Both the position numbers and the translations under genes were made by a program. A DNA stretch of 27,235 nt from positions 1 through 27,235 of IMG/VR virus record IMGVR_UViG_3300006793_000215; one strand, written 5' to 3'. How positions within the stretch are numbered: the stretch's first letter is position 1; every line of letters begins with the position of its first letter. This document shows positions 5,926-26,575 of this stretch, piece after piece. The notes beneath the pieces are model-generated. The model saw only the letters and a program-made list of their open reading frames with translations, was not told the origin of the DNA and ran no database searches. The stretch comes from a virus.

Positions 5926-7113
5926 TTATTTTCTTTTAATTCCAAACCTAGGCGAACTAGAAGATTTAATTGACTTAACCGTAAAACCGCCTGGCATACT
6001 GACTTTCTCATGAGCACCTCTTGGGCTCATATCAATATTCTTGGCTTTTTCAACACTGCTTTTCATTGCGTCGGCTTTGCCTTGCTCGTAAAAGTGGTTT
6101 GCAATTGCATCTGGATTCATAGCTGTAAATAAAGACTTGTGATAACCTGCAGCGTCATTCATTTCATTTTTATCGTTCAAGAACTTCTTGACCAAATTAT
6201 TGATGTCGCTTTGGGTGTCTTTAACCTGATCTACATTATTAACTTTAAACCTAAATTTCTTTTCTCCAACATTGAAATCAAAACCTTTGAAATCATTAGA
6301 AAAAAGCTTTTCTGTTTTGTTTTTAAATGTAGACACTTGCTGTTCAGCTATTTTAGTTGCCTGTTCGTTTTCTTTTTTATAACGGTTAAAAAACTCAACC
6401 GCTTTTTGTTGTTCTGGATTTAATTTTGATCCAGCTTTAATTTCTTCGTAATACTTAGCCTTTAATCCATCTAGGTGATTTTTAGCTTTTGCTAACTCTT
6501 CTTTATGAGCTAACTTTTTTCTACGTACATCTCGATTTTCATCTAGCTCTTCATCATAAGCAAAATTATCTTCCATTAAGAAAGAAATTTCTTCCGAGTC
6601 TAAATGAGGTCTAGTTGTTTCGTAATATTCTCTTAATAATTGTGTTTCATTCAATGAAGCATAATCTGTATTAAGCTTAACATAATCCTCAAGAGATCCT
6701 CCTGTTTCATTCATAAACTCAACTACCTTTTGAATATTCTCAGGTAATTCAGCTCCTGCGTCAGCCTCTATTAAAGCCTGCTCAACCTGCTCTTCAAGCT
6801 CTTCTGCTTGCTCTTGTACTTCTTCTTCTGTTATTTCTTGAAGAACTGATTCTTCAGCTTGAACGGGGGTTTCCTCATTTTGGACGGGCTCCCGTACTTC
6901 TTCAACCACTTCTTCGCTACTTGGCGTGTCTTCGGGTTGTTCGACAGGAACATCGCCTGCATCTGTTTCTTGTTCTGGAATGGCATCTTCTGTTGGTTTA
7001 TTTAATTCTGATAAATCAACCTTAATAACGCCGTCCTCGAACGACATAGGTTTTGCTTCTTGCACAGTAGTCTCTTCGACTACAGGTGCTTCTTTTTCTT
7101 GTTCTTCTGACAT
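5926..7113 (-). CDS. Putative capsid scaffolding protein
   Basis: This 395-aa protein sits exactly between portal and capsid, where scaffolds are found. The first ~135 residues are extremely acidic and low in complexity (runs of E, V, P and Q). The middle (about 150-290) is highly helical and charged with coiled-coil-like heptads. The C-terminus turns basic (SPRFGIKRK). An acidic disordered head, a helical rod and a basic C-terminal capsid-binding tail are the classic architecture of phage scaffolds. No protease triad is visible, so it is probably not a scaffold-protease fusion. The call rests on composition and gene order; sequence alone does not prove it. Confidence 0.65.
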   Translation of the reverse strand: MSEEQEKEAPVVEETTVQEAKPMSFEDGVIKVDLSELNKPTEDAIPEQETDAGDVPVEQPEDTPSSEEVVEEVREPVQNEETPVQAEESVLQEITEEEVQEQAEELEEQVEQALIEADAGAELPENIQKVVEFMNETGGSLEDYVKLNTDYASLNETQLLREYYETTRPHLDSEEISFLMEDNFAYDEELDENRDVRRKKLAHKEELAKAKNHLDGLKAKYYEEIKAGSKLNPEQQKAVEFFNRYKKENEQATKIAEQQVSTFKNKTEKLFSNDFKGFDFNVGEKKFRFKVNNVDQVKDTQSDINNLVKKFLNDKNEMNDAAGYHKSLFTAMNPDAIANHFYEQGKADAMKSSVEKAKNIDMSPRGAHEKVSMPGGFTVKSIKSSSSPRFGIKRK

Positions 7114-14295: not shown

Positions 14296-15270
14296 TTATC
14301 CTAATATATTTAATTCTGGATCAATCGCGTTTGCTGATTGAGAATAAGTGGAGCCTTTTCTTTTTGACAGTCTAGCTTTCTTTTTTTCAATAGCTTTTTC
14401 TTTTCTTAGGGCTTTCTTTTCGTTTCCTTTTGCTCTTGCAATATCAGCTTTATTTTGCTTCTTATCTATACTCCTGTTCTTTCTAGCGTTTTTCTTAGTA
14501 GTTGTTTTTTTAGCAGTTTTTACAGCATCCACTGAAGCTTTATTGTCTATAGACACAGGTTTTGTTGTAATAGTGCTAACTGGTTTTGCTTTCTTTTTAG
14601 CTACCTTGGTTGTGTCATCTTGTTTCCATCCGCGTCTTGTGTACTCATCTCTACGAGCCTGCGTATTTAAACCGAAGTTTTTCATGCTAGCATTGTACTT
14701 CTTTCCAGACGATTTTGTTGTTGTATTTTTAGCAGTATCTTTTTTCTTGTCGGTAGAAGCTGTTTCTTTTTTCTTAACTTTAGACTTATAGGTGCCTTTA
14801 GCCTTAGCCAAAGCATAGTCTCTAGCCGTATAACCTTCTGTTAATGACGGATTCTTTTTTGTGTCGTAATCAAATAAGTTCTTTTCAAACTTTTGAATAT
14901 TTTTTGATTTTCTATTAGCCGCGCGCATTAAGACATCCATTTGTTTAGGATTTTTGTTGCTTGCTGCTCTTTTAGTATCGCTGTCTAAACTTAATACATT
15001 TTTTCTATAGCTATCAAGTCTTTCGTTATAGCTAGCTGCATCTTTTTCTTTTTTAGCTTTTATAGCTTTGGCTTTTTGATTAGCTTTTGTTTTTTGCTGC
15101 GCATCATATTGCGAACTAAAATCCTGTGCTTTTGTTTGTTTAGCAGGGGTTGTTGCTTTCATTTTTACTGGAGCGCCTACATTAAGTAGAGGCTGTGTAA
15201 TACCACCTTTGGTAGTGCGTTTAATTTTAGCTGTTATAGGGGTGCAACCACCGTTTGATTTGTAAGCCAT
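14296..15270 (-). CDS. Lysine-rich low-complexity protein with peptide tags
   Basis: This 324-aa protein is dominated by Lys, Ala, Thr and Asn and is probably largely disordered or helical. It has several very basic runs, for example KKKAKPVSTITTKPVS and the C-terminal KALRKEKAIEKKKARLSKRK. The first 45 residues are different: TPITAKIKRTT (10-20) and PVKMKATTPAK (34-44). Closely related peptides occur in the adjacent 331-aa protein. It could bind phage DNA or be packaged as an internal virion protein. No enzyme motif is seen. An alternative is a host-takeover nucleoid protein. The gene is certain from its length and tight spacing; the function is unknown. Confidence 0.55.
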   Translation of the reverse strand: MAYKSNGGCTPITAKIKRTTKGGITQPLLNVGAPVKMKATTPAKQTKAQDFSSQYDAQQKTKANQKAKAIKAKKEKDAASYNERLDSYRKNVLSLDSDTKRAASNKNPKQMDVLMRAANRKSKNIQKFEKNLFDYDTKKNPSLTEGYTARDYALAKAKGTYKSKVKKKETASTDKKKDTAKNTTTKSSGKKYNASMKNFGLNTQARRDEYTRRGWKQDDTTKVAKKKAKPVSTITTKPVSIDNKASVDAVKTAKKTTTKKNARKNRSIDKKQNKADIARAKGNEKKALRKEKAIEKKKARLSKRKGSTYSQSANAIDPELNILG

Positions 15271-15274
15271 TGTT

Positions 15275-15418
15275 TTATTTTTTATATGGGAATATTTCGT
15301 TTAGTTTTTCTTTTCTTTTTTTGCAACCACAGCCGCCGGGGATTTTATCGGCTAATTTTTTAATACCTGTTGCTTTTGTAAATTTTTCTATTGAATCCCC
15401 TAGTCCTTTTGATTCCAT
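15275..15418 (-). CDS. 47-aa basic CxC mini-protein
   Basis: A short ATG-to-TAA frame fits exactly between two genes, with an 11-nt gap before it and 4 nt after it. The product begins with MESKGLGDSIEKFTKATGIK, has a Gly-Gly-CGC motif at 28-32, and ends with basic and aromatic residues (KRKEKLNEIFPYKK). I recognise the pattern 'GLGDxIEKFTKATGIKK ... CGCxKRxExLNxxFPY' from small proteins of other marine phages, which supports it as a real gene. The CGC could bind a metal or form a disulfide. Nothing is known of its role. Its neighbours are other small basic Cys-containing proteins. Confidence 0.7.
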   Translation of the reverse strand: MESKGLGDSIEKFTKATGIKKLADKIPGGCGCKKRKEKLNEIFPYKK

Positions 15419-15429
15419 TATATTATATT

Positions 15430-15783
15430 TTAAGAGTGTCTACTACAGCACCATCTTCTTCTTGCCGCTTTTCCCCTTGTACCTGTCCAACTCTTAGATC
15501 TAGAACAAAATGCTTTTTGCCTTTTATAAGCTGCTGTGCCAACTTTAACGTCACATTTGGTAACTGCTGTTTTAAGCTTGCTGCCAGGATTATCAGCTCT
15601 ATACTTCTTCACTCCTTTTTGTGACATACCTCCGCCTGCTGCTGCTCCTTCTTTTCTGCCAGCTTTTACTTCGTTGTAATAGCCTTTTGACTTTTTACGG
15701 GACGGTGCATCGCCTTTTTTCTTTAAAGGTGAATCGCAGCCGCAGTTATTTTCTTTAAAGGGATTATTTTGTATATATGCCAT
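15430..15783 (-). CDS. DUF5872-like small basic protein
   Basis: This 117-aa, strongly basic protein has the core GVKKYRADNPGSKLKTAVT (about 58-76), then a spacer and KRQKAFCSRSKSW near 88-100. It ends with GKAARRRWCCSRHS. The 'KGVxxYRAxNPGSKLKTAVT ... KRxKxFCxR' pattern is that of a family of unknown function I know as DUF5872, widespread in phages and also in some giant viruses. The N-terminus holds NPFKENNCGCDSPLKKKGDA, with a CGC motif and an SPLKKK peptide echoing the neighbouring proteins. It may be a nucleic-acid-binding virion protein, but no role is established. Confidence 0.68.
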   Translation of the reverse strand: MAYIQNNPFKENNCGCDSPLKKKGDAPSRKKSKGYYNEVKAGRKEGAAAGGGMSQKGVKKYRADNPGSKLKTAVTKCDVKVGTAAYKRQKAFCSRSKSWTGTRGKAARRRWCCSRHS

Positions 15784-15788
15784 AATTA

Positions 15789-16784
15789 TTATTTTTTACC
15801 GTAACCTTTCATTTTAAACCCTGATCTCATTTTGCCTGGAGCTGCTTTAATTGCGGCCTGCAAATGCTGAGGTAATTTATGTTGATTGCCCTGTAGTTTT
15901 TTTACAGCAGGACTTTTAGCTTTCATTTGAAAAGGGGCGGGCTTCATAGTTATGCCTTGAGAATACTGACCTGGTTTATATAAATCAAGCTCACCTAATT
16001 GTTTAGCTGTTTCCATCATTCCAGAAAAAGGGGTTTGACCCGGCATTGGAGCACCAGCAGATTGACTAGTTGTCACACCCGATTGTGCGGCAATTTCAGC
16101 ACGTCTAGCTTTTTTAGCTTCTTGCTTAGCTGACTCTAACTGCTCTTCCTTACTTAGTTCGCCTTTATCCATTTCTCTTTGGCCTTGGTAATATCTTTCA
16201 CCTGCTGCTCTTCCGCTTTTTACGCCTTTTTGGATATTAGAGGACATTGCTTTTGCTGTATCATACCCTACTTCAGCTTGTTGAAGTTTTCTAAGCTCTT
16301 TTTGGGACAAACCTTCATTTTGCGTAAAATTACCTTCTTTATCAAAAGTACCGTATTTTTCCATTTTACGACGCTTTTTGTTTACTTGACGATCGCTTCT
16401 AGTTTGAGCTCTTAGTTGACGACGCACTTCCCAAGGTTCAAGCATAGTGCCTTTTTTCTTAGTTGTCATAAGGTTTGTATCGTAATCTAGGTCTTCTCCT
16501 TTTTTCGTTGTAGTAATTTCTTTTTCCCCGCCGCTTGTGCCATATAAAGGGTCCGCTTTAGCTACTTTAGAATATTCTTCAAAAGATAAATCTTTGTATT
16601 CAGAACCTCTATCTTTATAAGCTTCTTGTAGACTTTTTTTAGGCGTTTTTACTATTTCAGTTACAGTTTCGTCTTCACCCTCTTCCCTGCCGTATTTTTT
16701 TGCCTTAGGATCTTTTGTTTCTTTTGCCGGAGAGTATTTTAAAAAAGGTGATCTTTTTACTCTACTAGTTATTGGTTTTTGCAT
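15789..16784 (-). CDS. Basic, tag-bearing low-complexity protein
   Basis: This 331-aa protein is rich in Lys, Glu, Gly and Gln and looks mostly unstructured or helical (for example 120-145 and 160-235). It carries short peptides at both ends. N-terminal are KPITSRVKRS (3-12) and SPFLKYSPAK (12-21). C-terminal are PFQMKAKSPAVKK (284-296), LQGNQHKLPQHLQAAIKAAP (297-316) and GFKMKGYGKK (322-331). The 'QGNQHKLPxHLxAAIxAAP' block recurs in marine phages as far as I remember. The arrangement of tags around a variable body suggests a virion-targeting or processing function. No enzymatic motif is visible. It sits 5 nt upstream of the DUF5872-like gene. Confidence 0.55.
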   Translation of the reverse strand: MQKPITSRVKRSPFLKYSPAKETKDPKAKKYGREEGEDETVTEIVKTPKKSLQEAYKDRGSEYKDLSFEEYSKVAKADPLYGTSGGEKEITTTKKGEDLDYDTNLMTTKKKGTMLEPWEVRRQLRAQTRSDRQVNKKRRKMEKYGTFDKEGNFTQNEGLSQKELRKLQQAEVGYDTAKAMSSNIQKGVKSGRAAGERYYQGQREMDKGELSKEEQLESAKQEAKKARRAEIAAQSGVTTSQSAGAPMPGQTPFSGMMETAKQLGELDLYKPGQYSQGITMKPAPFQMKAKSPAVKKLQGNQHKLPQHLQAAIKAAPGKMRSGFKMKGYGKK

Positions 16785-16804
16785 CTTAGTTAGGTTAGTT
16801 TGTT

Positions 16805-17080
16805 TTATACTTCTGGAGTTTCAGTTGAATCAGTGGTTATCGCTGCGTCTGCTTGCCCCTTATTTTTGTCGTCATTTTTGTCGTCATCATTAGGTTTGCT
16901 TTTCGGTGCGCTACCTCCCGCGGGGGTACTTTGACCTCCAGAAAACTTTTCAGCCATTCCTTTTCCATAGTCTACAAACTTTTTTGAAGCAGCTACATCT
17001 GCAGCTCCTTGTACTAAGCCCATATTCATTTTACACGCGCTGGACGCTTTACTTGTTATTGATCTTGCTTTATATGCCAT
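16805..17080 (-). CDS. Small protein with shared N-terminal peptide, unknown function
   Basis: This 91-aa protein starts MAYKARSITSKASSACKMNM, resembling the opening of the 324-aa protein (MAYK, then an ITxK motif). A small helical segment with LVQGAADVAASKKFVDYGKG follows. The second half is a Gly/Ser/Pro linker and an Asp/Lys-rich disordered tail (PNDDDKNDDKNKG). It is 2 nt downstream of the HExxH gene. No function is recognised. The opposite charge of its tail relative to its basic neighbours is notable. Confidence 0.5.
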   Translation of the reverse strand: MAYKARSITSKASSACKMNMGLVQGAADVAASKKFVDYGKGMAEKFSGGQSTPAGGSAPKSKPNDDDKNDDKNKGQADAAITTDSTETPEV

Positions 17081-17082
17081 AA

Positions 17083-17463
17083 TTATGAATTTTTATATGC
17101 TTCTCTTTCCCATTCAAAGTCGCCACCTTCTTCAGCGCCTTTGCCGGTTTTTTCATCTATTAATTGTCCATTTATTCTTTTGTAAACTCTAGCCGGTGAT
17201 TTAGTATCTTTTTTCCAAGTTACAGTATTGTCGTCATACTGCAATCTACCTTGAGCCATTTGATCTAAATGTACTTTTTCGTGATTTACAGCCTCTTGTT
17301 TCTTTTTACCTTTTAGTGACTTGTCTATAAAAATAGTACCATCATTATTAGCTTCACCTAAAATGCCGCCTTCTAATGTTTTTTTAAAAACAGGTGTATT
17401 ATAAGTTGAGGTTTCTTTGTCTATTCCAACAAGGTCTGCAAAATCTTTTAATCTGAATCCCAT
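17083..17463 (-). CDS. Small HExxH zinc-metallopeptidase-like protein
   Basis: This 126-aa protein contains VNHEKVHLDQMAQG at 59-72, a clear HExxH zinc-binding/catalytic motif (H61, E62, H65). Near the C-terminus is WEREAY (118-123), whose Glu could be the third zinc ligand of a gluzincin-type site. The region between (QYDDNTVTWK, SPARVYKRI) looks strand-rich. The length is that of a minimal metallopeptidase domain without a propeptide or signal peptide. The substrate is unknown: candidates are a virion maturation step, processing of the neighbouring tagged proteins, or a cell-wall peptide bond. It overlaps the winged-helix gene by one base (TAATG). Three conserved ligands make chance unlikely, but activity is inference. 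Confidence 0.6.
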   Translation of the reverse strand: MGFRLKDFADLVGIDKETSTYNTPVFKKTLEGGILGEANNDGTIFIDKSLKGKKKQEAVNHEKVHLDQMAQGRLQYDDNTVTWKKDTKSPARVYKRINGQLIDEKTGKGAEEGGDFEWEREAYKNS

Positions 17464-26265: not shown

Positions 26266-26520
26266 TTATTTTGTGTTGTAAGTTTGTCCTGATTCTTGCT
26301 GAGTACCTAAGCCTTCGTTTCCTCTGTTTGATTTAATAGAAACGAACTTCTGTCTTTTGTGATCGTAATCTTGACCGTCTAGGTTTTGACCTTTCTTTTT
26401 AGCCGCACTACGGACTCTCTGAGCATGCGCTTTTTTAGCCTTCCGTTCAGGGGTCATTGCATAAGCTTTATCTCTAGCAGCTTTAGCTCTTCTAGCAGAT
26501 GGGGAAAGTTGTTGTCTCAT
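26266..26520 (-). CDS. First gene of the leftward block: small basic protein
   Basis: I take the ATG at 26520 (84 aa). A TTG at 26541 would add seven residues but lies in the putative promoter. The product is Lys/Arg/Ala-rich and helical at the start (SPSARRAKAARDKAYAMTPE and KKAHAQRVRSAAKKKG), then DGQDYDHKRQKFVSIKSNRG and NEGLGTQQESGQT. The 'DGxDYDHKRxxFxSxKSNRGNxGxGT' part is familiar from small proteins of other marine phages. It may bind nucleic acid or be packaged in the virion. No signal peptide is present. Confidence 0.65.
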   Translation of the reverse strand: MRQQLSPSARRAKAARDKAYAMTPERKAKKAHAQRVRSAAKKKGQNLDGQDYDHKRQKFVSIKSNRGNEGLGTQQESGQTYNTK

Positions 26521-26538
26521 ACCATGTATGATTACGCA

Positions 26539-26575
26539 CAATTATATAATACTAACATAGACCCCAATTATATAA
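26539..26575 (-). promoter_or_regulatory. Direct repeat upstream of the leftward block, possible late promoter
   Basis: CAATTATATAA occurs at 26539-26549 and 26565-26575. Read leftward, each gives TTATATAATTG, which contains TATAATTG, close to the Bacteroidota -7 box TAnnTTTG. A TTG lies 18 nt upstream of the gene-proximal copy. This makes it a reasonable late promoter or activator-site pair for the first leftward gene, but the spacing is slightly shorter than the usual 19-21. Confidence 0.35.

Follow-up and report, generated by a model that had tools for sequence, protein, structure and literature searches.

In phage T4, a capsid-targeting sequence (CTS) of ~10 residues encapsidates virtually any protein to which it is attached (PMC7697877) and is removed by the head protease (PMC7697877, PMC5694885). 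In the giant phages SPN3US and phiKZ, N-terminal propeptides, mostly >100 residues long, are common to several head and ejection proteins and are cleaved at an [S/A]xE-type motif by the prohead protease (PMC5694885). The crassvirus phicrAss001, a Bacteroidetes phage, carries virus-encoded proteins (gp45 and gp46) inside its virion; the part of that account used here describes large cargos (60-91 kDa, together with RNA polymerase subunits) and mentions no targeting peptide or cleavage for them (PMC10172136). Here we analyzed IMG/VR virus record IMGVR_UViG_3300006793_000215 (hereafter the window), a 27,235-base fragment of an uncultured podovirus-like phage with its main genes on the - strand, in which neighboring genes encode mostly basic proteins that have short, related peptides near their ends. 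These peptides (hereafter tags) are real and common to unrelated protein bodies, are confined to these phages as far as we searched, and are borne by proteins encoded among the late genes. The reading that we favor, at a probability of roughly one half, is that the tags are prohead- or virion-loading peptides, usable at either end of a protein, which would act like the T4 CTS while being unrelated to it in sequence.

The genes and tags concerned, with the core element designated the PIT tag, are the following.

14296..15270, - strand: 324-aa basic, low-complexity protein carrying tags, read as an open reading frame (ORF)
15217..15240, - strand: PIT tag PITAKIKR, residues 11-18 of the 324-aa protein
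15133..15174, - strand: second tag APVKMKATTPAKQT, residues 33-46 of the 324-aa protein; consensus APVKMKxSSPAKQT
15430..15783, - strand: 117-aa DUF6321 protein, with NPFK and SPLKKK in a tail that precedes a small helical domain
15789..16784, - strand: 331-aa basic, low-complexity protein with tags at its N- and C-terminus
16749..16775, - strand: PIT tag PITSRVKRS, residues 4-12 of the 331-aa protein
15792..15947, - strand: C-terminal tag block of the 331-aa protein, with FQMKAKSPAVKK, LQGNQHKLPQHLQAAIKAAP, and SGFKMKGYGKK
16805..17080, - strand: 91-aa protein; PIT-type tag, then LVxGAA motif
17039..17062, - strand: PIT-type tag SITSKASS, residues 7-14 of the 91-aa protein
16982..17029, - strand: motif MNMGLVQGAADVAASK, residues 18-33 of the 91-aa protein
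17083..17463, - strand: 126-aa HExxH protein, predicted metallopeptidase fold, starting MGFRLK

The original prediction, made from the window alone, had linked TPITAKIKRT (from residue 10) and PVKMKATTPAK (from residue 34) of the 324-aa protein to KPITSRVKRS (from residue 3), PFQMKAKSPAVKK, and GFKMKG (the latter two near the C-terminus) of the 331-aa protein and to RSITSKASS (from residue 6) of the 91-aa protein, with further motifs in the 117- and 126-aa proteins. Every quoted peptide is present at its place on the - strand in these five proteins. The 117-aa protein, described then as DUF5872-like, is a DUF6321 protein (PF19846; E=2.9e-7; 31.4 bits, above the gathering score of 28.5), and DUF5872 matches, weakly, only another small protein in the near relative G001 (G- and L-numbers label contigs and loci of relatives). 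The DUF6321 model has a predicted local distance difference test (pLDDT) score of 72, with residues 1-26 <50, and the tag-bearing tail is predicted to be disordered. The peptide SPARVYK of the HExxH protein, also proposed as a tag, probably is not one and was dropped: it lies within the predicted folded core, in a strand predicted with high confidence at residues 92-97, and Y94 and R96 are invariant.

Taken from the window alone, the evidence for tags is weak to moderate. The score between the N-termini of the 324- and 331-aa proteins was reached by 13 of 3000 shuffles, and that between the internal APVKMK motif of the 324-aa protein and the C-terminus of the 331-aa protein by 4 of 3000. The 91-aa tag showed no significant similarity to the other tags of the window, with 710 and 1045 of 3000 shuffles reaching its scores. 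We take the tags to be real because the relatives settle what these statistics cannot.

In ORFs read from homologous loci and long contigs, PITx[KR] occurs within the first 30 residues of 144 out of 2618 distinct ORFs, far above the 1.47 expected from local shuffles (maximum of 6 in 200). The original prediction had made its case depend on such an excess; because these ORFs were gathered by homology, however, homologues inflate the 144. The independent measure is a DNA scan, with controls, that takes no account of protein family: one DNA spelling (fixed codons) of PITQKAK was sought in all 2.9 million viral contigs. The scan gave 99 matches; the 98 in-frame ones divide into 62 at the extreme C-terminus, 33 at the N-terminus, and 3 internal. 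The permuted control PTIQKAK gave 6 matches, 2 of them in frame. Most C-terminal matches belong to one small family (WDGPL), and a second C-terminal family, RKSFKEQARELD, is possibly a relative of the 91-aa family. A few terminal ORFs (L297, L322) are so short that they may not be genuine genes. Members of the WDGPL...GSSSG...PITQKAK family (L225-L323) are 64-80 aa long with the PIT tag at the very C-terminus, and no match to them was found in cultured phages. The PITQKAK pattern had 74 matches (34 outside any ORF) in bacterial and archaeal genomes totaling 257 billion bases, and only two of these matches are tag proteins. These two (L379, L403) lie on contigs of one Woesearchaeota metagenome bin and are probably misbinned phage; beyond them, no tag-like terminal peptide pattern was found in these genomes.

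About ten body families carry the PIT tag in the relatives, and BLAST comparisons between tagged families found mainly the tags themselves, the bodies being little alike beyond them. Homologues of the 91-aa protein have clear PIT tags (KPITNKASS, AQPITSKAKCSPLK, TPITQKCKSSPMKMN). Those of the 324-aa protein, 191-379 aa long, keep a start of ~40 residues and have the body replaced, and those of the 331-aa protein keep the start and the LPQHLQ block, with the FKMKGYGKK end kept in near relatives. The same LPQHLQ block opens other proteins (G008, L197, L203), related KKGYxK tails end other genes, and a protein first filed under the 324-aa family (L177) is a 331-family protein with a 324-type tag. 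Unlike the window proteins, some DUF6321 homologues have PIT in the tail (G009, L147, L149, L155, L159) and some HExxH homologues have a PIT tag (G015, G020, L258). PIT carriers that lack a homologue in the window comprise the QEVT family (44-227 aa), two small families that are cysteine-rich or SPAK-bearing, a 228-aa protein, and a WPSAYASG-type protein in L305. Finally, G020 joins HExxH, 91-like, and 331-like parts in one 457-aa ORF (L117:6321-7664, a locus in G020), with an internal PIT tag at a junction. In L158, 91-like and DUF6321 parts are fused.

Codon comparisons show that the tag regions are under purifying selection. Synonymous fractions were taken from tag blocks that played no part in choosing the sequences; the 87% of the N-terminal tag was not used as evidence, because the sequences were chosen by that tag. 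The LPQHLQ block of the 331-aa family shows 76% identity with 55% synonymous codon differences, and the APVKMKxSSPAKQ block of the 324-aa family shows 74% mean pairwise identity with 56%, compared to about 10-20% synonymous differences in most body blocks (12-24% in the comparison for the 324-aa family; a few sparsely occupied or near-tag blocks are higher). Different codons encode the three window tags, and such differing DNA spellings rule out recent gene conversion as the source of the shared tags. Thus, the claim that common tags sit on unrelated cargo is strongly supported by the ~10 body families, the exchange of cargo, purifying selection, and terminal placement, and the confirmed observation is larger than first described.

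The 324-aa protein fell into no family of Pfam or PHROG, and cultured phages yielded no relatives of it or of the 331-aa protein. A PDB sequence search with DUF6321 and the 324-aa family yielded nothing useful, and the fold search with DUF6321 returned a single, worthless match. We found no description of these tags in the literature on DUF6321, DUF5872, SPKK, and capsid targeting in Bacteroidetes phages; no paper was found on DUF6321, and only algal-virus work on DUF5872.

Along the - strand, the window encodes GroEL, GroES, a 146-aa protein, the HExxH protein, the 91-, 331-, and 117-aa proteins, a 47-aa ORF, and the 324-aa protein, followed by a holin, several small proteins, terminase, portal, an acidic scaffold-like protein, and the capsid protein. 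The portal is 54% identical to that of Manatee Spring phage MW202828, 46% to that of Maribacter phage Panino, and 44% to those of the Flavobacterium elemo phages; the corresponding values for the major capsid protein are 50%, 47%, and 43%, with 37% to Calle. By portal and major capsid homology, the window belongs to the podovirus lineage of the elemo, Panino, and Calle phages, and homologues of both proteins also occur in Cellulophaga phages. The tag-bearing group consists of uncultured phages related to cultured Flavobacterium and Cellulophaga phages. Further features of the window are as follows.

5926..7113, - strand: acidic 395-aa protein, net charge -37, a putative scaffold by its charge and its position between the portal and major capsid genes
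15275..15418, - strand: 47-aa ORF MESKGLGDSIEKFTKATGIKKLADKIPGGCGCKKRKEKLNEIFPYKK, read from the sequence between the 117- and 324-aa genes and absent from the gene list; its form is GLGDSIEKFTKATGIKK...GCGC...LNEIFPYKK, with homologues in many relatives and in MW202828
17463..17903, - strand: 146-aa protein after GroES, kept in the relatives read; phi38:1 gp78 looks like its counterpart (phrog_17028)
26266..26541, - strand: lysine-rich 91-aa protein, 46% identical over 71 aa to phi38:1 gp80

In the mechanism that we propose, the tags would serve as addresses: short linear peptides, exposed at the ends of late proteins that are unrelated and mostly basic, would route these proteins into the prohead or virion. 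The core element is [T/K]PIT[S/A/Q/K/N][K/R][A/V/I][K/S], which most cargos bear at the N-terminus and others at the very C-terminus; FKMK/SPxK, the LxGxQxxLPxxLQxxIxxAP block, and the basic KKGYxK tail are accessory elements. The tags may bind a head-assembly component, such as the scaffold, the major capsid protein, or the portal, and the tagged proteins, once packaged, would act inside the head or be ejected from it. A more elaborate and more tentative version holds that these four elements form a small code of interchangeable terminal peptides that, acting from either end of a protein and on freely exchanged cargo, could load a variable internal proteome into the head. A targeting or packaging role, which the original prediction had raised beside cleavage, stands as the best-supported reading, as judged from synteny in the late head and lysis region and from motif links to virion proteins; the cleavage part fared less well, as set out below.

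The motif links are suggestive only. The MNxxLVxGAAxVAASK motif of the 91-aa protein is found again where a 476-aa protein of G001 begins (profile E=0.0014; no protein outside the 91-aa family and its tagged relatives matched better), with an alignment score of 55 that 0 of 2000 shuffles reached. This 476-aa protein, a putative ejection protein, adjoins the giant virion gene, as do its counterparts. In G020, SPLK stands at the start (MKKYQGESPLKLAP) of a 209-aa putative ejection protein, and FKMK stands near the start of 4 of 17 scaffold-position proteins (FKMK-like near the N-terminus in G007, G014, G018, and G025). In L305, the gene of a PIT-tagged protein directly follows the giant virion gene. 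The untagged, basic 91-aa protein at 26266-26541 is related to phi38:1 gp80, which its record annotates as structural by similarity.

Several points weigh against a loading role, beginning with the modest strength of these links. The SPLK link comes from one genome, and at family level FK[MLI][KRQ] is not in excess (12 families against a shuffle mean of 6.9 and a maximum of 14). No PIT-tagged protein was seen among the genes inspected in the cultured relatives elemo, Panino, phi38:1, phi46:3, and MW202828, which implies that the tag is not needed for this head type. We found no virion proteomics covering any tagged protein, and the data are equally compatible with address peptides for another destination.

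Other explanations of the tags differ in what the peptides would recognize. The SPKK motif of histone H1 tails binds DNA, and the S/T-P-x-K motifs and basic tails could likewise be DNA-binding elements that also condense the phage DNA, in which case the proteins would be histone-like and would enter the head only by riding on it. The cargos are indeed very basic (net +22, +25, and +42 for the G001 counterparts of the 331-aa, DUF6321, and 324-aa proteins), SPxK resembles the SPKK minor-groove motif, and DUF6321 and small basic proteins adjoin the tagged genes. We nevertheless consider this explanation unlikely: PITxK, the most conserved element, is no SPKK motif, occurs only at termini, and is also found on the near-neutral 91-aa family and HExxH proteins, and the retained LPxxLQxxIxxAP blocks match no DNA-binding signature known to us. 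Ranked below it, and distinctly unlikely in our view, is the proposal that the tags are recognition or cleavage sites at which the cargos are trimmed by a maturation protease; the small HExxH protein of the cluster might be that enzyme. The model of that protein (pLDDT 87) resembles the metallopeptidases IrrE/PprI (Z 5.9) and the minigluzincin abylysin (Z 4.2); the best rows are HExxH enzymes, but Z values of at most 5.9 lie below the level that secures a shared fold, and no Foldseek E-value is <0.001. Among 27 homologues, H61, E62, and H65 are invariant and W118, E119, and E121 nearly so, within a conserved C-terminal WExEAY; the protein thus has the HExxH and a downstream glutamate, as do gluzincins and minigluzincins. 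No convincing match to it was found in cultured phages. A HExxH homologue is present at 73 of the 98 PITQKAK loci, and the G020 fusion has its internal PIT tag at a junction. However, HExxH often occurs without PIT, the C-terminal PIT tag is present in clades L236/L248 and L301 although their clusters contain no HExxH gene, and a cut within ~10 residues of a terminus would take off the tag alone. Pfam found no prohead protease family among the proteins scanned, the only candidates seen being an endolysin-type M15 protein and the small HExxH protein. On these grounds we regard cleavage as a possible role, though not the favored one.

Lower again, and improbable in our view, we rank the suggestion that the tags have no connection with the virion and instead direct proteins to some structure, of host or phage, within the infected cell (the chaperonin, the membrane, the nucleoid, or the lysis machinery). 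In its favor, no tag receptor is known, and the cluster directly follows the phage GroEL/GroES genes and adjoins the holin gene, both in the window and in many relatives. It accounts less readily for the motif common to the 91-aa protein and a putative ejection protein, for the tagged gene beside the giant virion gene, and for the restriction of tag-like terminal peptides in bacterial and archaeal genomes to the two probable phage contigs. Very improbable, finally, is that the tags are functionless leftovers of exchange among linked, disordered genes. These genes are adjacent, low in complexity, and visibly modular, but the tags are conserved while the bodies diverge, codon changes within them are mostly synonymous, and their DNA spellings differ.

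If the tags do load cargo into the head, the internal proteome of a widespread, uncultured phage group could be read from sequence alone, and any gene with a terminal PIT tag, including families of no known function, would be a candidate for a packaged or ejected protein. Capsid-targeting peptides would then have arisen outside T4-like phages and could act from the C-terminus. Whatever the destination, a single end peptide conserved across about ten unrelated families implies a receptor, which can be sought directly.

Compared to known systems, the tagged proteins share with histone H1 tails the S/T-P-x-K repeats in basic, disordered proteins, whereas the PIT core and the LPxxL block are not part of SPKK. 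They resemble the propeptide-bearing proteins of SPN3US and phiKZ in having N-terminal segments common to several proteins, but the tags are only ~8-20 residues long and have no evident [S/A]xE-type motif. They also resemble T4 IPI-III and Alt, whose CTS is likewise a short terminal peptide common to unrelated proteins. The T4 CTS is always N-terminal, whereas 62 of the 98 in-frame PITQKAK matches are C-terminal; the tags also come in several types, are unrelated to the CTS in sequence, and are found without a prohead protease that Pfam recognized among the proteins scanned. Because N-terminal position is a defining feature of the T4 CTS class, the tags are not members of it; by analogy, they most likely work like the T4 CTS from outside that class.

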